DNA of 40,273 nt, taken from NCBI GenBank assembly GCA_016793095.1, contig JAEUJQ010000017.1, positions 1 through 40,273 on the forward strand, given 5' to 3'. How positions within the stretch are numbered: position 1 is the stretch's first letter; every line of letters starts with the position of its first letter. Below, piece after piece: positions 12,043-19,985 of this stretch. Position numbers and translations under genes: made by a program. Under the pieces are notes generated by a model, which saw only the letters and a program-made list of their open reading frames with translations, had not been told where the DNA came from and searched no databases. The DNA is from Myxococcaceae bacterium. Its GTDB lineage: Bacteria; Myxococcota; Myxococcia; Myxococcales; Myxococcaceae.

Positions 12043-12770
12043 TCAGGGCGGCCGACGGACGGGCGCGTCTTCGAGCACGAGCTCGACCTTCCGGAGCATG
12101 GCGAGCGTTGCCTGATCGTCGGCCCAGCGCGGTGGCCTGGCGCAGCAGGATCGACGCGTCCACGAGCCCGCGCCCCTGCTGCTTCTCCTCCTTCGGCTCC
12201 TCGAGGAGCTTGCGCCTTCGCGAGAGGTCACCGCTCGAGTCCCCGCGCGACCTCGACGAGCAGCTTGACGTCGTCGGGGCGCTGCTCGAGCGCCGCGAGC
12301 TTCACCGGCGGAGCTTCGGTCGGGTCGATCCGCAACTGGCAGCCACCGGCCGTCTCGGTGAACGCCGTCGCCCAGGCGCCCCTGAGCGAGTCGCTGGCGC
12401 GACCCCGGCGTCGGTCTCGAGCACGGGCGTCTTCACAGGAGCCTTCACCGGGAGCGGCGCAGGGCTCACTGCCGTTCCCGCGAGCAGCCCCGCTGGATCA
12501 GCCCGACCAGGCCGTTGCCGTGGCTCGTCACGTCTGCCCGGCCGGCTCGTCGCCACAGCCGCCGAGCGACACGCCAGGGGCAGCCGCCGAACCTCCAGAG
12601 GACCGCCCAGACCGGAGGGGACCGCGCGCCGCAGCGGGTGCCGCCGGACAGCAGCGAGGAAGAAGCCGGGGACGAGGCCGGGCATCGACTTCGACTCGAT
12701 GAGCTTCGCGCCCGGCGGCAGCTCCTTCGGCAGGGCGAGGGTGCTTCTCAGCCCTCGGCCCTGGTCTTCG
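12043..12770 (-). pseudogene. Frameshifted gene of unknown family
   Basis: Minus-strand translation gives coherent protein segments that jump between frames in the correct order: LPKELPPGAKLIESK near 12720-12680, then KLAALEQRPDDVKLLVEV (about 12285-12235, followed by an in-frame stop at 12228), then KLLEEPKEEKQQGRGLVD (about 12215-12160), then DDQATLAMLRKVELVLEDAP (about 12125-12060), with a stop at 12043. The joins need at least two or three frameshifts. The last half looks like a helical repeat protein of the TPR-linked kind found in myxobacteria. I cannot name the family. The region lies between the OmpA gene and hisC on the same strand. Clustered sequencing error is possible but less likely, since the neighbouring genes are clean. 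Confidence 0.55.
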
Positions 12771-12812
12771 CGCCGGTGGCGATGAGAGCCGGCTCCGCCA
12801 GCCGGACGCCGA

Positions 12813-14645
12813 TCACTCGGTGGGGTCGTCGTTGGAGGCGCCCGAGGCGCGGATCACGAACTCCACCCGCCGGTTGTTCGAGCGCCCGGCGTCCGTCTTG
12901 TTCGTGTCTGCCGGTCGATCGGGTCCGAAGCCCTTCGCCTGGAGCCGCGTGCCGTCGACGCCCTGGTGAATGAGGTAGTCCTTCACCGAGTTCGCGCGGC
13001 GCTGCGAGAGGCTGATGTTGTAGTCGCGCTTGCCCTGCGAATCGGTGTGGCCTTCGACGCGCACGAGCTGGATCTCGGGGTGATCGCGCAGCACCCGCGC
13101 CACGTTGTTCAGCAGCGGGAACGAGCGCGGCAGGATGGTGGCCTTCGCCGTCGCGAAGAAGACCTTCTCTTTGATGATCAGCTTCTCGCTCGTGATGATG
13201 ACGAGCTGACGCTCCTTCTCGGGGCAGCCCTGGTTCTCCTTCGGGCCCTTCACGTCGGGGCAGTTGTCGAACTTGTCTTCGACGCCGTCGCCGTCCTTGT
13301 CCTTGATCGGACAGCCCTTGTTCTCCTGCGGGCCCGCCTCGTCAGGGCACGCGTCGTCCTTGTCCTCGACGCCGTCGCCGTCCCTGTCCTTGATCGGGCA
13401 GCCGTTGCGCTCGACCGGCCCGGGCTCGGTGGGGCACTCGTCCTTCGTGTCCGGCAGGGTGTCTCCGTCGGTGTCGAGCTCGACGACCTTCACCACCGGG
13501 CAGCCCTGGTTCGCCAGCGGACCCTTCTTGAGCGGGCAGCGATCCTGCCCGTCCGGCACCCCGTCACCGTCGTTGTCGGGATCAGGGCAGCCGTCGGCGT
13601 CCTGGAAGCCGTCCTTGTCCTCTGGCTCGAGCGGGCAGGTGTCGTTGCGGTTGAGGATCTCGTCCTGGTCGTCGTCGAGATCGGGGCACTGCTGGGGCGT
13701 GTGTTTGCGATCGGGGCGGCAGGGGTCGTTGTCGTCGGGTCGAATGCCGACGCCGCCGAGCACCCGCACGGTCGGGGTGCCAGGCAGGCTGCCGAACCCG
13801 GGCCCCGCCAGCAGGAACAGCTCGATCGGGCCGATTGGCACGCGCGCCCCGCCGAGCAGCTCGAAGCCGGCCGGCGTCTCGCCCGCCCCGAGGGGAAGGA
13901 GCGTGTGGAACGAGCCCTCGAAGCGCGCTCCCTCGCCGGTGCTGCTCACCAGGGCGCGCAGGCCCAGCTGGCTCCCGATCTGATCACGCACCGCCGCCGA
14001 GCTGGACAGGTTGACCGAGGTGGGGCGCACGAGCCCGACGATCTCTCCTCCGACGCGCACCGGCCCGAAGTCCCGGCCCGCCGACAGCTGCGGGAAGATG
14101 TTCCAGCCGCTCTCGACGGCGAGCGCGTTGCCCACGCCGAACGGGAAGGCCGTGCCGAGCTGCAGCGCGAGATCGAGCGGCATGTCAGCGACGAGCCCGC
14201 CCTTCCGCTGCGAGAGAATGCCGAGGCGCACCGCCAGCCGCGGCGACGCGAGGCCCGCGCTGTCTGGCGAGAGCACCCGCGCGACCTGCGAGAGATCGTC
14301 ACCGCCCTGGTACAGGACGATCGGCACCTCGAGCGTCGCGGTCAGGAACGAGGTGATGCCGTAGCCCACGCCGAGGTGCAGGTTGAGCCGGTTGCCGACG
14401 AGCGAGCCCTGCCGCTGCGCGTCGCGGAACAGGACCAGCGGGTTGTTCTCGTAGTGGAAGGCGCCCCACGCGCGGAACTTGCGGTGTGGCAGCACGTCAC
14501 CGGTGGCCGCCCCCAGGCCGCCGAGCGGCGCGTCGTTCAGCGTGAAGCGGGTGAGCGAGAAGCCCGGCAACGGCGTCGCGTCCTGGGCGTACGCGGGCGC
14601 CGAGGCGAGGAGACCGACGAGGAGGACTCGAACGAGGCGGACCAT
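12813..14645 (-). CDS. Outer-membrane beta-barrel with TSP3 repeats and OmpA domain
   Basis: The 610-residue protein has a signal peptide (1-20, cut after AYA), a region of about 280 residues with alternating hydrophobic strands that should form a beta-barrel (25-300), a stretch of thrombospondin type-3 calcium-binding repeats (about 303-475; DNDGDGVPDGQDRCP, DRDGDGVEDKDDACP, DKDGDGVEDKFDNCP) and a C-terminal OmpA peptidoglycan-binding domain (about 480-600; VEGHTDSQGKRDYN and SNNRRVEF). It should span the outer membrane and hold the cell wall. Its ATG comes two bases after the stop of the giant Ig-repeat gene, so expression is very likely coupled. Such barrel-OmpA proteins can act as partners or anchors for large surface proteins; TraB of Myxococcus is the known comparison, but orthology is not shown. 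Confidence 0.9.
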   Translation of the reverse strand: MVRLVRVLLVGLLASAPAYAQDATPLPGFSLTRFTLNDAPLGGLGAATGDVLPHRKFRAWGAFHYENNPLVLFRDAQRQGSLVGNRLNLHLGVGYGITSFLTATLEVPIVLYQGGDDLSQVARVLSPDSAGLASPRLAVRLGILSQRKGGLVADMPLDLALQLGTAFPFGVGNALAVESGWNIFPQLSAGRDFGPVRVGGEIVGLVRPTSVNLSSSAAVRDQIGSQLGLRALVSSTGEGARFEGSFHTLLPLGAGETPAGFELLGGARVPIGPIELFLLAGPGFGSLPGTPTVRVLGGVGIRPDDNDPCRPDRKHTPQQCPDLDDDQDEILNRNDTCPLEPEDKDGFQDADGCPDPDNDGDGVPDGQDRCPLKKGPLANQGCPVVKVVELDTDGDTLPDTKDECPTEPGPVERNGCPIKDRDGDGVEDKDDACPDEAGPQENKGCPIKDKDGDGVEDKFDNCPDVKGPKENQGCPEKERQLVIITSEKLIIKEKVFFATAKATILPRSFPLLNNVARVLRDHPEIQLVRVEGHTDSQGKRDYNISLSQRRANSVKDYLIHQGVDGTRLQAKGFGPDRPADTNKTDAGRSNNRRVEFVIRASGASNDDPTE

Positions 14646-14647
14646 GG

Positions 14648-17600
14648 TTAGCGGGCTCGGCGGCGACGGGTGATGAGGGCCGCGAGGGCCAGCAGCAACG
14701 GGGGCGCTGCGTCAGGGGACACCTGGCTGCAGCTCAAGAGGCCCTGACCTGCGTAGCGCAGCGACGGAATGCGGATGAAGAACGGGACGTCTTGTGCGCG
14801 CAGGCCCTGGTTGCCGGCCGGATCGAGCGCCTCGGCCGAGACGGTGTGGTTGCCCTCCGCGAGCACGTTGGCGGGAACGGTTCCGCTCCAGCGGCCCTGG
14901 GCATCGGCGGTCGCGAAGAGCACGGGCCTTCCATCGAGGTAGATGGTGACGCGGGCGTTCGGCTCCGAGGTGCCGGTGATGTCGAACGGGCGGTCGATGT
15001 CGAGCGCCGCGTTGCGCGCGGGCGTGATGATCACCGGCGGGTTCGGCGCCGTCGAGTCGACGTCGAAGCCGACCTGCGTCGTCTCGGGTCCGGTGTTGCC
15101 AGCGACGTCCGTCGCGTGCGCCTTCACCTCGTAGCGGCCGTCGGCGAGCTGCGTCGGGGGCGTGAAGGTCCAGTCTCCGGCGGCGTCGGCGGTCGTGGTG
15201 CCGGCCTCCTGGCCGTTGATGAAGATCGTGACGGTGGCGTTGGGCTCCGCGGTGCCGGACATCATCGGTCGCCCCGTCGTCGCCACGCTGTTCGCAGTGG
15301 GCAGGACGATCACCGGCGCAGCGGGCGGCACGGTGTCCTTGGTGACGGGGCGCTGATCGGAGCCCGTGCCACCGGCCGTCATCTGCGAGGCGCGCACCTG
15401 CACCATTCCGTCCGCCAGGGAGGTGACGTCGAGGGTCGCCGAGAAGAGGCCGTTCATGCAGGCGGCGGTGCCGGTCACCGTTCCGACCGAGAGGCTGACG
15501 GCGCCCGCGCTCGACGTGCAGAAGCCGCTGACCTCGTACATCGGCGCGCGAGCCCGGTTGATGACGAGCAGGTTGCCGAGGATCACCGTCGGTACGTTCT
15601 CGACGAGGAACGTGCGGGGCATCGAGGCGGGGCCCTGGTTGCCGGCGCGGTCCGTCTGCCGGGCCGTGACCGTGTGGCTGCCCGCGCCCAGCGTGGTGGG
15701 ACAGCTCCAGGCGCCGGTCATCGTCGCGGTCGCCTGACAGACGATCGCGGTGCCCTCGTTCACCAGCACCACGGAGAAGGGCTCGGCGGTGCCCGAGATC
15801 ATCGGCGACAGGCCCACCCGGGCGCTCTCGAGCGGCGCCGAGATGACGGGGGCGGCCGGCGCCATCGTGTCGATGGTGAAGGTGCGCGGGGAGGAGGCGG
15901 GCGAGACGTTGCCGGAGGGGTCGGTCGCGGTGGCCGTCAGCACCACCTGGCCGTCGGAGAGCGTGGACGACACGCAGCTCCACAGGCCGTTCATCGGCGT
16001 GATGGTGGTGCACACGACGGTGCCGCCGTTCGACACCCGCACGGTGCTGCCCGGCTCCGCGGTGCCCGAGAGCGGAGGCGTGGTGTCGTTGGTGACGGCC
16101 TGGTCGGCTGGGCGCATGAAGGTGGGCGCAGTCGGGGCGACGGTGTCTTTCACGGTGCTGCGGGTGTCGTTGCCGGTGCCCGACGGGTTCGTCTGGGCGG
16201 CCACGATGGTGACCGAGGGGGCGTCGGGGACGGCGACGACGATGACGGTGGTGCTGAAGGTGCCCGCGGGGCAGGGCGCTGACGCGTTCACCGCGCCGAT
16301 GGACAGGGTGACGGCGCCGGCCGAGGCGGTGCAGGTGCCTGACACCGGGTACGCGGAGGCGTTGGAGCCGTTGATGGGCCCTGGCGTGTCCAGGGTGACG
16401 GTCGGCACCGCCGCCACGGTGAACTGACGTGGCGTCGAGGGCGCCGAGGTGTTGCCGCTCACGTCGCGCTGGGTCGCGGTGATCGTGCGAGTGCCTGGCT
16501 GGTACGAGGTGGGGCAGCTCCACTGGCCAGTCCCGTTGGCGGTGACGCTGCAGATGAGCACGCCGCCCTCGGACACGCTGACCGTCGCGTTGGGCTCTGC
16601 GGTGCCCGCGATCGTCGGGTTGATGCCCACCGTCGCGTTCTGCGCCGGGTTGGTGATGACGGGAGCGGCCGGCGCCGCCGTGTCGACGTTGAAGTTCCGC
16701 GCGGGAGACACCGGCGACGCGTTGCCGACCTCGTCGGTGGCGGTGGCGGTGATGGTGACGGCGCCGTCGGGGATGGCGGGGGCCACGCAGCTCCACACGC
16801 CGTTGGCCGGGACCGTGACGGTGCAGACCGTGACCGCGCCGCGGCGAACGACGAGGGTCGCGCCAGCCTCGCCGGTGCCCGTGATCGTCGGCGTCGAGGT
16901 GTTGAGCGTCGCGCCCTCCGTGGGCGTGGTGATCGAGGGGGCCGCGGGCGCGCTGGTGTCCTTCCGGGTGCTGCGGGCGTCGGTGCCGGTGCCCGTCATG
17001 TTCGTCTGCGACGCCGTCACGCTGATGCTCGGGCCATCGGCGAGGCCCGACGCGTTCACCGTCGTCCCGAACGTGCCCGAGTTGCACGCCGTCATCGCGG
17101 TCACGGTGCCGACCTGGACGGTGACGGTGCCGGCCGCCGTCGTGCACGCGCCCGAGACCGGGTAGGCGGCGGCGTTCATCGACGAGATCGCCGGCGGGGT
17201 GGTGAGCGTCACCGTGGGCACGTTGGCGATGGTGAAGGTGCGGTTCGGCGCCGCGGGGCTCGTGTTGTTCGCCCGATCGCGCTGGGTCGCTGACACCGTG
17301 CGCATCGACGGGCCGAAGGTGGTCGCGCAGGACCACTGACCGAGGTTGTTGGCGGACACCGTGCAGACCGTCCCGGCGCCTTCGGTCACGGTGACGGTCG
17401 CGAAGGGCTCCGCCGAGCCCGAGATGCTGGGGTTCGGGCCGACGGTGGAGCCCTGCGCGGGGCTGTTGATCACCGGCGCGGCGGGCGCGACCGTGTCGAT
17501 GGTGATCGAGCGCGGGGGCGAGACCACCGAGGTGTTCCCGGCTGGATCGGTCGCGGTCGTGGTGAAGGTGCGCACGCCGTCGGCGAGCGTCGAGGTGGTG

Positions 17601-19282
17601 CAGGTCCAGATCCCGTTGCCCTGGGTGAGCGCGGTACAGACGGTGACGCCTCCCACGATCACCCGCACGGTCGCGCCCGGCTCGGCGGTGCCCGAGATGG
17701 TCGGCGTCGAGGTGCCAGAGAACGAGCCGTCGGCGGGGCTAGTGAAGACGGGGCTCGACGGCGACGAGGTGTCCTTCGAGGTCTGCCGCGAGGTCGTGCC
17801 TGTGCCCGCGAAGTTGGTCTGAGAGGCGCTGACGTTGATGGTCGGGCCGTCAGCCAGCGAGGCGACGTTCAGCGAGGTCGAGAAGGTGCCGGCGGCGGTG
17901 CAGGCCGTCCCCACGACGACGGTTCCCACCGAGACCGTCACCTGGCCGGCGATCGTCTGACACGAGCCCGAGACCGGGTAGGCCGTCGCGTTGGAGAGGT
18001 TGATGATGCCCGGGGAGTTCAAGGTGACGATGGGCGCGCTCTGCACCACCGACAGGGTCTGATCGCTCACCTGGTTCTCGACGACCGACAGGTTCGAGAT
18101 GTTGGTGCGCCCGTTCACGTACGCGCCCGGCACACTGGCCGTCACGTTGACGGTCAGCGTGCACCGCTGGGTGAGGGGCGCCAGCGAACCGCTCTGCAGG
18201 CGAATGCTGTGCGGCGGCGTGGTCGAGTTGAGGGTGACGGTGCCGCTGCAGGTGTTGGTGAAGACGGTGTTCGCGAGCAGCAGGTTGGCGGGCAGCGTGT
18301 CCTGGAAGCCGAGGTTCCCCTGCGCCGGCGCGCCCGGCACGTTGTCGATCGTGAAGGTGAGCGTCGTCGTCGAGCCCGCCGACATCGCGGTGGTCCCGAA
18401 GGCCTTGGTGAGGGTCGGCTGGTACGAGAAGAACGTGAGATCGTTCGTCACCACCTGGGTGGAGGGCGCCGAGCCGAAGTTCCACATGATGGCGAAGCCG
18501 TTGTCCTGCACGGTGGAGTCCACCCAGTTGTTGAAGGTGTTCGCGCCGAAGACGTTGTTGCCGCCACCCGAGCCCATGGGGCACAGCGCGTCACGGAACA
18601 TGCACTCGTAGAAGCCGCCGTAGTAGCCGGTCCACGGCACGCCGCCGCGGTAACGCCACGCCAGCACGATGTTGGAGGCCTGCCTGAAGCCGCCCACCAC
18701 GGTAGGAGGGCCCTGCACGAAGAAGCTGGGGCCGAAGTCGTCGCCGCCGAGGTAGGCGTCGAGGGCGTGGTAGAGACGCACCGGCACCGTGTTGCCCGAG
18801 GGAATGGTGAGCGTGTGCGTCACCGACACGAAGTCGTTGGGGAAGACGTAGTCGTACCGGACCGACACGTCGTAGTTCCTCCCGCCCACCGTGGCGCGCA
18901 GCACCGTGGTGGCTGAGCCTGAGCCGTTCGGCTGCGGGGTGAGCGTGTTGCTGATCGGCGTGAACTCGGCGGCCGTGACGCCGGTCACCGGTGCTGCCGC
19001 GAAGTGGAGTGGCCCGAAGACGTTCGTCGTTCCGACCGCGAGGTACACGCCGTTCGACAACCCCGTGAGGACGCCGGGGTTGGTGGTCGCCCCCGGGGTC
19101 GCCGTCTGCGAGTAGAACTGCCCCGTCCCGTTGCGAATGACCTGCACCTGGCCTGTCGGGCCCACGTGAACGCGGACCCCTGTGCCAGGCCCGGTGCCTC
19201 CGCTCGGGTTGATGGTCACCTGCGCGAACGCGAGAGCAGGGGTGAGGGCCAACACCACCAGTGAGCTGGGCTGCACGCGCAT
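14648..19282 (-). CDS. Giant secreted Ig-like-repeat surface protein, MYXO-CTERM-like tail
   Basis: A 1544-residue exported protein. It has a signal peptide (1-20, LALTPALAFA), a unique N-terminal domain (about 21-290) rich in Gly and aromatics, with YYGGFYECMF, a DUF11/DUF7933-like domain (about 290-410; TFTIDNVPGAPAQG), then twelve Ig-like domains (416-1503) in a three-domain pattern that recurs every 271-272 residues. Most of these Ig domains carry two Cys, suggesting a disulfide each; the last two lack them. The C-terminus has one Cys (1518), a short hydrophobic run and RRRRAR, as in the MYXO-CTERM signal that anchors myxobacterial surface proteins after processing. It heads a two-gene unit with the OmpA barrel. 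Likely an adhesin or cell-cell contact protein; its ligand is unknown. Confidence 0.88.
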   Translation of the reverse strand: MRVQPSSLVVLALTPALAFAQVTINPSGGTGPGTGVRVHVGPTGQVQVIRNGTGQFYSQTATPGATTNPGVLTGLSNGVYLAVGTTNVFGPLHFAAAPVTGVTAAEFTPISNTLTPQPNGSGSATTVLRATVGGRNYDVSVRYDYVFPNDFVSVTHTLTIPSGNTVPVRLYHALDAYLGGDDFGPSFFVQGPPTVVGGFRQASNIVLAWRYRGGVPWTGYYGGFYECMFRDALCPMGSGGGNNVFGANTFNNWVDSTVQDNGFAIMWNFGSAPSTQVVTNDLTFFSYQPTLTKAFGTTAMSAGSTTTLTFTIDNVPGAPAQGNLGFQDTLPANLLLANTVFTNTCSGTVTLNSTTPPHSIRLQSGSLAPLTQRCTLTVNVTASVPGAYVNGRTNISNLSVVENQVSDQTLSVVQSAPIVTLNSPGIINLSNATAYPVSGSCQTIAGQVTVSVGTVVVGTACTAAGTFSTSLNVASLADGPTINVSASQTNFAGTGTTSRQTSKDTSSPSSPVFTSPADGSFSGTSTPTISGTAEPGATVRVIVGGVTVCTALTQGNGIWTCTTSTLADGVRTFTTTATDPAGNTSVVSPPRSITIDTVAPAAPVINSPAQGSTVGPNPSISGSAEPFATVTVTEGAGTVCTVSANNLGQWSCATTFGPSMRTVSATQRDRANNTSPAAPNRTFTIANVPTVTLTTPPAISSMNAAAYPVSGACTTAAGTVTVQVGTVTAMTACNSGTFGTTVNASGLADGPSISVTASQTNMTGTGTDARSTRKDTSAPAAPSITTPTEGATLNTSTPTITGTGEAGATLVVRRGAVTVCTVTVPANGVWSCVAPAIPDGAVTITATATDEVGNASPVSPARNFNVDTAAPAAPVITNPAQNATVGINPTIAGTAEPNATVSVSEGGVLICSVTANGTGQWSCPTSYQPGTRTITATQRDVSGNTSAPSTPRQFTVAAVPTVTLDTPGPINGSNASAYPVSGTCTASAGAVTLSIGAVNASAPCPAGTFSTTVIVVAVPDAPSVTIVAAQTNPSGTGNDTRSTVKDTVAPTAPTFMRPADQAVTNDTTPPLSGTAEPGSTVRVSNGGTVVCTTITPMNGLWSCVSSTLSDGQVVLTATATDPSGNVSPASSPRTFTIDTMAPAAPVISAPLESARVGLSPMISGTAEPFSVVLVNEGTAIVCQATATMTGAWSCPTTLGAGSHTVTARQTDRAGNQGPASMPRTFLVENVPTVILGNLLVINRARAPMYEVSGFCTSSAGAVSLSVGTVTGTAACMNGLFSATLDVTSLADGMVQVRASQMTAGGTGSDQRPVTKDTVPPAAPVIVLPTANSVATTGRPMMSGTAEPNATVTIFINGQEAGTTTADAAGDWTFTPPTQLADGRYEVKAHATDVAGNTGPETTQVGFDVDSTAPNPPVIITPARNAALDIDRPFDITGTSEPNARVTIYLDGRPVLFATADAQGRWSGTVPANVLAEGNHTVSAEALDPAGNQGLRAQDVPFFIRIPSLRYAGQGLLSCSQVSPDAAPPLLLALAALITRRRRAR
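14774..18037 (-). repeat. About 815-bp tandem super-repeat encoding three Ig domains
   Basis: Within the giant surface gene the units run 18037-17222, 17221-16409, 16408-15596 and a divergent fourth, 15595-14774. Each encodes domain A (AYPVSG...C...SQTN..GTG...KDT), domain B (GTAEPGATV...VCT...WSC...TATATD..GN) and domain C (PAAPVI..P...VG.NP.I.GTAEP...WSC...ATQ.D). The fixed order and nearly constant 271-272-residue period point to growth by duplication of the three-domain block. The units differ at many positions, so the duplication is not recent. Confidence 0.85.
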
Positions 19283-19370: not shown

Positions 19371-19985
19371 TCATCCGCGCAGCCGGCATTCGCAGTAGAG
19401 GAACGCCTGCGCCTTGCCTGAGGGCGTGAGGTGCTGCTCTGTCGCGCACGAGAGGGGCTCGAAGTCGGGACCGAAGACGGCATGCAGCTCGTGCTCGTCG
19501 TACCGGGCCACCGCGAGCCCGCTACACGACGTGGGGCCCTCGTGGCTGAAGGTGGCGATGAGCACGCGGCCGCCGGGCCTGAGGCAGCGGCGGACCTGCT
19601 CGACGTAGCGTCGGCGCTGCTCGCCGTCAGTGAGGAAGTGGAACACCGCCCGGTCGTGCCAGAAGTCGTACGCCTGGTGTGGGAGCCCGACCGAGGTGAC
19701 ATCGCCGACGACCCACTTCACCTGCCGCCCGCGATCCCCCAGCCGCGCCCGGGTGACCTCGAGCGCGCGCGGCGAGAGATCGAGCACGGTGAGGTCGCGA
19801 TAGCCGCGGCCGAGCAGATCGTCCACCAGCGTCGAGGCGCCCGCCCCGACGTCGATGATGGCCCCTTGCGCCGGCAGGCGCGCGTCCTCGATGAAGCGCA
19901 GCGACTGGTCGAGGTGGGGTCGATACCAGGAAACCCCGGTCGTTGGCTTTCGCTGGTAGACGGACTCCCAGTGGGTCTGATCCAT
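19371..19985 (-). CDS. Class I SAM-dependent methyltransferase
   Basis: A 204-residue Rossmann-fold methyltransferase. Motif I is IIDVGAGASTLVDDLL (about 43-58), the acidic ribose-binding residue lies in LTVLDLS, motif III is VVGDVT, and the motif IV region is YDFWHDRAVFHFL. Post-motif blocks CLRPGGRVLIATFS are typical. The opening HWESVYQRKPTTGVSWYRP matches the recurrent start of small-molecule or thiol-type methyltransferases of this group; the substrate cannot be told. It is cytoplasmic, with no signal. It lies upstream of the giant surface gene on the same strand and divergent from the cytochrome gene, with about 137 bp between their starts. Confidence 0.88.
   Translation of the reverse strand: MDQTHWESVYQRKPTTGVSWYRPHLDQSLRFIEDARLPAQGAIIDVGAGASTLVDDLLGRGYRDLTVLDLSPRALEVTRARLGDRGRQVKWVVGDVTSVGLPHQAYDFWHDRAVFHFLTDGEQRRRYVEQVRRCLRPGGRVLIATFSHEGPTSCSGLAVARYDEHELHAVFGPDFEPLSCATEQHLTPSGKAQAFLYCECRLRG

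Follow-up and report, generated by a model that had tools for sequence, protein, structure and literature searches.

A TraAB-like gene pair of Myxococcaceae encoding an Ig-stalk surface protein with a conserved head and a barrel/OmpA protein

Introduction

The specificity of the surface receptor TraA is set by its variable head. The genes traA and traB overlap by four nucleotides, as the consulted portion of PMC3325183 describes. TraB is built of a signal peptide, a barrel, thrombospondin type 3 (TSP3) repeats and an OmpA domain, and a predicted 1:1 complex places the base of TraA on the TraB barrel; both proteins are reported to reach the outer membrane without needing each other (PMC12045341, in excerpt). 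TraA itself is predicted to arrive at the surface by type II secretion, and its tail is cut by the myxosortase MrtX in dependence on a conserved cysteine (Guo et al. 2025, PMC11980579, in excerpt). A TraA paralogue, MXAN_4924, is mentioned in the 2012 text, in whose consulted portion no role could be ascribed to it (PMC3325183). In the excerpts of this and other papers TraAB is treated as one system.

Here we report on a gene pair from the window, that is, the whole stretch of 40,273 nucleotides that was analysed. The preliminary description had read this pair as a TraAB-like contact module. This reading is partly supported. Neither the pair nor a family of TraB-like pairs was found among the matches listed in our literature search.

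Results

Gene layout and genomic setting

The window genome comprises 8.8 Mb in 93 contigs. Both genes lie on the minus strand, which the preliminary description had left unsaid. The gene for P0001, an Ig-stalk surface protein of 1544 amino acids, was delineated from its open reading frame and translation (14648..19282) and has 13 full-length copies in three genera; the gene for P0002, a TraB-like barrel/TSP3/OmpA protein of 610 amino acids (12813..14645), follows from its open reading frame, domain matches and model. As the P0001 stop ends at 14648 and the P0002 ATG starts at 14645, a junction of two bases is left (14646..14647), and the coordinates confirm what had been described, namely a stop two bases before the ATG of a signal-peptide/barrel/TSP3/OmpA gene.

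Downstream on the same strand are the remains of a third gene of the operon, which is broken in the window (12049..12775, recognized as tblastn pieces in several frames). In L008, L009 and L012 this gene is open, codes for 191-192 amino acids and shares 4 nt with the barrel gene, and L011 has a nearly full-length match. The product in the relatives has no Pfam family over cut-off. Since the window has only a broken copy and no match was found in L128, L010, L122-L124 and L126, the gene is not a core part, and an essential role was rejected. At L121 its position is taken by an unrelated third gene, whose TPR matches stay below cut-off. Directly upstream of the stalk gene we note a methyltransferase gene (19371-19985, minus strand), which has relatives in the same place in L008 and L012.

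It had further been noted that the pair sits in a block which interrupts the gcv genes, and that this would suit an accessory trait. The position is indeed seen in the window's genus, but only in that one genus. The pair lies between gcvP and gcvH/gcvT in the window, L008 and L009; only the gcvH/gcvT side was seen at L012 and only the gcvP side at L010, L011 and L128. For L121, L122 and L126, which represent the other two genera, none of the window's gcv genes matched near the pair.

Domain structure of the stalk protein

P0001 begins with a signal peptide (residues 1-20, 19223..19282, minus strand as for all features of the pair), which was read by eye and ends in ALAFA; the orthologues keep such an N-terminus. 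The head follows (residues 21-288, 18419..19222) and is the most conserved part of the protein, with no homologue of weight in Pfam or the PDB; a structure model made from six rows has a pLDDT of 44. Next come a DUF7933 domain (residues 289-408, 18059..18418, PF25564, E 9.7e-21) and twelve Ig-like domains of the Big_13/Big_6 type (residues 416-1502, 14777..18037), which were delineated from Pfam (Big_13 E 2.9e-78, plus Big_6) and from the repeat register. The register consists of A-B-C triplets of about 271 amino acids each. Ten of the twelve domains carry a cysteine pair, which the last two are without. We also considered the last Ig domain as a conserved dock for the barrel, but rejected this as there is no clear positional signal.

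Among the NCBIfam models, the Ca_tandemer adhesin repeat (NF033510) matches P0001 in ten stretches with 265.2 bits, well over its cut-off of 50, and Ig_like_BLP2 (NF040520) gives 197 bits against a cut-off of 750. The PHROGs matches for the pair are of the repeat type and the OmpA type only. AgmC, a name from the annotation of similar myxobacterial Ig proteins, is a possible lead, for which the literature that we searched had no paper together with Myxococcus.

Sorting-type tail

The C-terminal tail (14651..14755) consists of AGQGLLSC with the cysteine at position 1518, a hydrophobic stretch and RRRR, and was delineated with TIGR03901 and a tail alignment. The tail completes the description given before, an exported protein of 1544 residues with a unique N-terminal domain, twelve Ig-like domains and a Cys-hydrophobic-Arg tail, all of which we confirm. 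The MYXO-CTERM model TIGR03901 gives 15.8-16.1 bits with the tail alone, below the cut-off of 20. It is not listed in the NCBIfam scan of the whole protein, and when the genome was searched at E 0.001, with 150 of 285 candidates scored, at least seven other proteins were found and P0001 was not among them. Formally, this is the negative MYXO-CTERM score which the preliminary description had named as refuting. However, the signature of a cysteine, a transmembrane helix and an arginine cluster at the extreme C-terminus is present in P0001, as read by eye and from alignments; the cysteine is invariant in 25 aligned tails, two TraA tails among them, and at E <= 0.1 TIGR03901 matches 17 and TIGR03382 matches 15 of these 25 related tails. 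The MrtX model finds its protein in the window genome with 338 bits (cut-off 180). By analogy with TraA, P0001 would be cut by MrtX and lipid-anchored.

The barrel/OmpA protein

The signal peptide of P0002 was read by eye. It is followed by an outer-membrane beta-barrel (about residues 21-302, 13740..14585), which has 12 strands in the AlphaFold2 model (mean pLDDT 81.7), by thrombospondin type 3 repeats (residues 320-474, 13224..13688, PF02412 in five stretches) and by an OmpA peptidoglycan-binding domain (residues 496-592, 12870..13160, PF00691, E 7.7e-22). With Foldseek the OmpA part superimposes on an OmpA C-terminal domain with an rmsd of 0.7-1.0 Å, and P0002 probably grips the cell wall. 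The window genome holds 45 stretches that match P0002, itself counted, and thus a large set of OmpA/TSP3 proteins.

Among solved barrels FapF, which serves the secretion of polypeptides, and a COG4313 channel match best. The barrel could act in the export or assembly of the Ig protein and take it through the outer membrane, the OmpA domain only fixing the pore; the 12 strands, these matches and the constant pairing of stalk and barrel genes (see below) would suit such a role. The barrel resembles FapF and COG4313 as a fold class only (rmsd 4.8-7.3 Å, 11-15% identity), and the export role is therefore a live rival. We nevertheless hold it to be unlikely, since type II secretion is the predicted route of TraA, whose tail is of this kind too, and since TraA is reported to need no TraB to reach the outer membrane (PMC11980579 and PMC12045341, both in excerpt).

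Conservation of the pair

Among 96 family genomes the head was found in 14, that is, in all seven of the window's genus, in all six of a second genus (g4) and in the only one of a third (g19), and it was absent from the remaining genera of this set, which spans 26. Five of the 14 genomes are less than 90% complete. In the phylum sample 16 of 195 genomes have the head, two of them weakly. Among named records, the nearest loci come from metagenome genomes labelled Archangium, Archangiaceae, Myxococcaceae, Myxococcus and Myxococcales.

We aligned 13 full-length copies of P0001, the window's included; they come from the three genera and keep the plan. The barrel gene follows the stalk gene at all 13 loci open to judgement (the window, L008-L012, L128, L121, L122, L123, L124, L126 and L127), while the contig of L125 goes no further than the stalk gene. 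Accordingly, the co-occurrence check turned out in favour of the pair: in three genera the two genes are not usually apart. Since the barrel follows everywhere and the genomic settings differ, the pair stays together and its place changes. The barrel start was placed at 12 loci; at the thirteenth, L127, the contig ends inside the barrel. Eight of these 12 have an overlap of four nucleotides (gap -4); the gap is 2 in the window and 9 in L010, and for L124 and L123 it is 44-47 or -4, depending on the start chosen. Eight copies of P0001 are 1543-1549 amino acids long and five g4 copies 1264-1269, and the latter therefore have one Ig triplet fewer.

Compared with the window protein, the other copies of the genus have 93-96% identity in the head (87-88% in L128, the most divergent member) and 60-90% in the Ig domains (56-79% in L128). 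In a comparison with five relatives the head has a dN/dS of 0.05-0.13, DUF7933 one of 0.10-0.30 and the Ig region one of 0.21-0.46; the head is under strong purifying selection. Because 13 full-length copies keep the plan and the dN/dS of the head is that low, the observation is confirmed as real and not a product of chance.

For TraA the gradient is the opposite in a like comparison. Five TraA proteins compared with the TraA of L179 gave identities of 0.38-0.74 in blocks 2-6 of 50 amino acids, and beyond block 6 mostly, not always, higher values, to 0.88; both gradients come from comparisons between species, not strains. This bears on the question whether the pair is a polymorphic kin-recognition receptor with different domains. 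The TraAB plan and the surface stalk would fit such a receptor. The head, however, is the most conserved part, the length is fixed and the gradient runs against that of TraA, and kin recognition, being very improbable for this reason, was rejected as the main reading. Variation of the repeat protein as a recognition trait was not supported either: between species its head is conserved most, and the length stays within a few residues in the eight longer copies. The same rates bear on the reading as a structural envelope pair, an OmpA wall tether with an Ig surface-layer component that has no specific ligand. One would then expect the OmpA/TSP3 plan, of which there are many such stretches in the genome, and Ig repeats of general type, as observed; as the strongest constraint is on the head and not on the stalk, we regard this as improbable.

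Outside the three genera the head profile found two weak matches in the 195 phylum genomes. One (G048, E 7e-4) was dropped, as its 7-kb contig has no barrel-like frame. The other (G157, from another family, E 3.4e-5) lies in a frame of 2162 amino acids which is cut by the contig end and has unread stretches. Eight stretches of Big_3_5 Ig type lie in this frame together with Cys-rich repeats and a tail of cysteine, transmembrane stretch and RRRRR, and 119 nt further on a barrel/TSP3/OmpA gene for 602 amino acids follows; the order of head, Ig, tail and barrel is that of the window. By eye the likeness between RLYHGGDAYFGGQD and RLYHALDAYLGGDD is suggestive. G157 is a lead only, because its head match did not come up again when hmmsearch was run locally.

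Relation to TraA and TraB

The best NCBIfam match of P0002 is TraB (NF033763) with 247.7 bits, far below the cut-off of 700. The TraA model (NF033759, cut-off 750) has no match in the window genome at E <= 1e-20 and is absent from the NCBIfam matches of P0001 to E 10. The Cys-rich repeat TIGR04201 is not among the nine NCBIfam families listed for P0001, whose stalk is of Big_13/Big_6 Ig type; as a marker for TraA this model is useless, because 96 of 96 genomes match it.

The barrel tree is a quick tree of 51 proteins, midpoint-rooted and made without bootstrap, in which some rows are long. The seven rows of the P0002 group form one clade (support 100) inside a group of 24 rows (SH-aLRT 97), and the six TraB rows form another clade (100). 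Holding the P0002 group and TraB together was rejected (p-AU 0.006). Thus, by score and by tree, P0002 is not an orthologue of TraB.

TraB is over cut-off in 61 of the 96 genomes, from eight genera, and in none of the 14 with the head; the TraA search was likewise negative in all 14 and positive in both controls. With no overlap between the two sets, and with the same plan and often the same 4-nt overlap as traAB, the pair might be a functional stand-in which mediates outer-membrane fusion and exchange in lineages without TraAB. We note, however, that the chance of 3 and 8 of 26 genera missing each other is about 0.31 by hand calculation, that the mutual exclusion is weak evidence because the genomes are related, and that five of the 14 genomes are incomplete. 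Furthermore, the barrel is not sister to TraB, the head is conserved where TraA has its specificity in a variable head, and related pairs coexist with TraAB in other genomes. Cao et al. (2019, PMC6372800, in excerpt) saw no lipid-dye transfer in one TraAB-less myxobacterium. A stand-in for TraAB is thus quite unlikely. In G060 (C1:3724034-3724972) there is a partial TraA-like match of 405 bits apart from traAB, perhaps a paralogue of the MXAN_4924 type.

The wider set of barrel-OmpA genes

For a survey of the neighbours of such barrels we used 53 loci, that is, the window, 12 stretches of its own genome that match P0002 and 40 from six genomes of one or two contigs; except for two of G002, the 40 take in every match listed for the TraB model in those genomes at E <= 1e-40. 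Eleven loci without a suitable gene were dropped (L132, L135, L137-L140, L183, L189, L197, L202 and L211). There remained 43 genes which match both the barrel and the OmpA parts of the P0002-relative profile, L203 giving two. Six of the 43 are TraB, and as a control all six adjoin a tail-bearing TraA.

Among the other 37 genes, 17 adjoin a tail-bearing surface protein and 20 do not. A neighbour was counted when it lies on the same strand within about 200 nt, has at least 250 amino acids and ends in a Cys-hydrophobic-basic tail; sixteen were found in this way, and L134 was added since its tail is visible once the partner is read to the end. The barrel gene comes first in fourteen, and the tail protein comes first, as in traAB, in three (the window, L181 and L217). 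L180, L181 and L217 have gaps of 100-194 nt. The background is 6 of the 304 genes called in these loci, with two of the six belonging to barrel loci, and Fisher's test of 16/53 adjacent frames against it gives 2.4e-10, a value which ignores relatedness. The tail-bearing neighbours are not independent events because they are clustered on the barrel tree, where the label 'taildown' needs only four changes. A cruder survey (79 loci, the twelve own ones and the window; 86 rows, ten with a tail) found the tail in 8 of the 45 rows with both a barrel and an OmpA part. It used a crude gene caller and missed at least L013, L019, L131 and L134, which a plain ORF search brings out; the rate in its sample is still lower.

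Sixteen partners were scanned for domains, fifteen of the 37-set (without those of the window and L181) and that of L020; for L134 the first 1888 residues were used. Big_13 is present in eleven of them and DUF4215 in four, three of these with Big_13. Of the others, one has a legume-lectin domain and another DUF7933; a third gave only a sub-threshold DUF11, and the last had no match. The Ig domains of P0001 match most of the scanned partners and its head none of them. In M. xanthus AM003 (L019) the barrel gene is followed after 20 nt by the gene for a tail-bearing protein of 1365 amino acids with Ig matches.

Some of these loci deserve mention on their own. L131 (10463-17458 on C57 of the window genome) codes for an Ig-repeat protein of 2331 amino acids with a FAGGGC tail, whose gene shares 4 nt with the end of a TraB-like barrel gene; the window genome has here a second pair of this kind, with the gene order reversed. 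L217 (5999-8314, G002) encodes a protein that combines a legume-type lectin domain with a Cys-TM-Arg tail, 100 nt before a TraB-like barrel/OmpA gene, the barrel of which has the longest branch of the tree; the partner is likely a carbohydrate-binding head on the same plan. Smaller proteins with GCQC/GCGC tails lie beside barrel/OmpA genes at L130 (11138-12406) and L137 (7678-8823), both in the window genome and outside the 17 of 37.

Discussion

We suggest, with slightly more confidence than doubt, that P0001 and P0002 form a wall- and lipid-anchored adhesin pair which is built like TraA/TraB and binds a conserved ligand. P0001 would be exported through Sec and held by its tail. Lipidation at Cys1518, cleavage by MrtX and transport to the cell surface would probably follow, and there the twelve Ig domains could serve as a long stalk that shows the conserved head. 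P0002 would sit in the outer membrane and dock to the stalk base of P0001, and its calcium-type TSP3 spacer and OmpA domain would hold the peptidoglycan, so that the lipid-anchored stalk would become a load-bearing, wall-anchored adhesin. The head might bind a conserved ligand such as a polysaccharide, a prey or kin surface or the substratum, and not a strain-specific partner.

More tentatively, and a little short of an even chance in our judgement, the pair could belong to a broad and so far unrecognized myxobacterial family in which TraB-like barrel/TSP3/OmpA anchors are combined with tail-anchored stalks and exchangeable heads. The head of the window pair, DUF4215 arrays, a legume-type lectin and others would be the heads, TraAB would be one specialized branch and the window pair a leading module of lineages without TraAB. 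If such barrels are general wall anchors, myxobacteria would have a repertoire of wall-anchored contact proteins whose heads can be assayed singly, and the origin of TraAB would become testable. The window pair is a clean case here, since the genomes that carry it gave neither TraA nor TraB, which could mask its role.

Compared with the known systems, P0001 shares an Ig repeat stalk with the Ca_tandemer and Ig_like_BLP2 proteins and differs from them by its Sec signal peptide, its sorting-type tail and its barrel partner. P0002 belongs to the same 12-strand barrel class as the FapF and COG4313 channels and is remote from them in sequence; these channels are not known to have an OmpA domain. 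Big_13 partners beside TraB-like barrels are found at L131, L180, L184, L188, L194, L195, L201, L203, L208, L215 and L216, to which L019 of M. xanthus AM003 is added by its Ig match. These have the barrel in the same 24-row clade, Ig domains with a Cys-TM-Arg tail and adjacent genes, but the barrel gene comes first and the heads are others, for example DUF4215 arrays; a head of the P0001 type was not found among them.

With TraA/TraB the pair has in common the two-gene unit with the head-stalk-tail protein first and the signal-peptide/barrel/TSP3/OmpA protein second, the Cys-TM-Arg tail, the presence of the MrtX gene and, at 8 of the 12 placed orthologous pairs, the overlap of four nucleotides. 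The same architecture had been proposed at the outset, and the plan matches for the exported stalk protein with its tail as well as for the barrel protein. Unlike TraA, P0001 has an Ig stalk instead of Cys-rich repeats and a conserved head without a TraA match; unlike TraB, P0002 falls far below the TraB cut-off and is not sister to TraB. The proposal of a separate system with different domains is supported for the stalk protein, and by its tree the barrel is a separate lineage.
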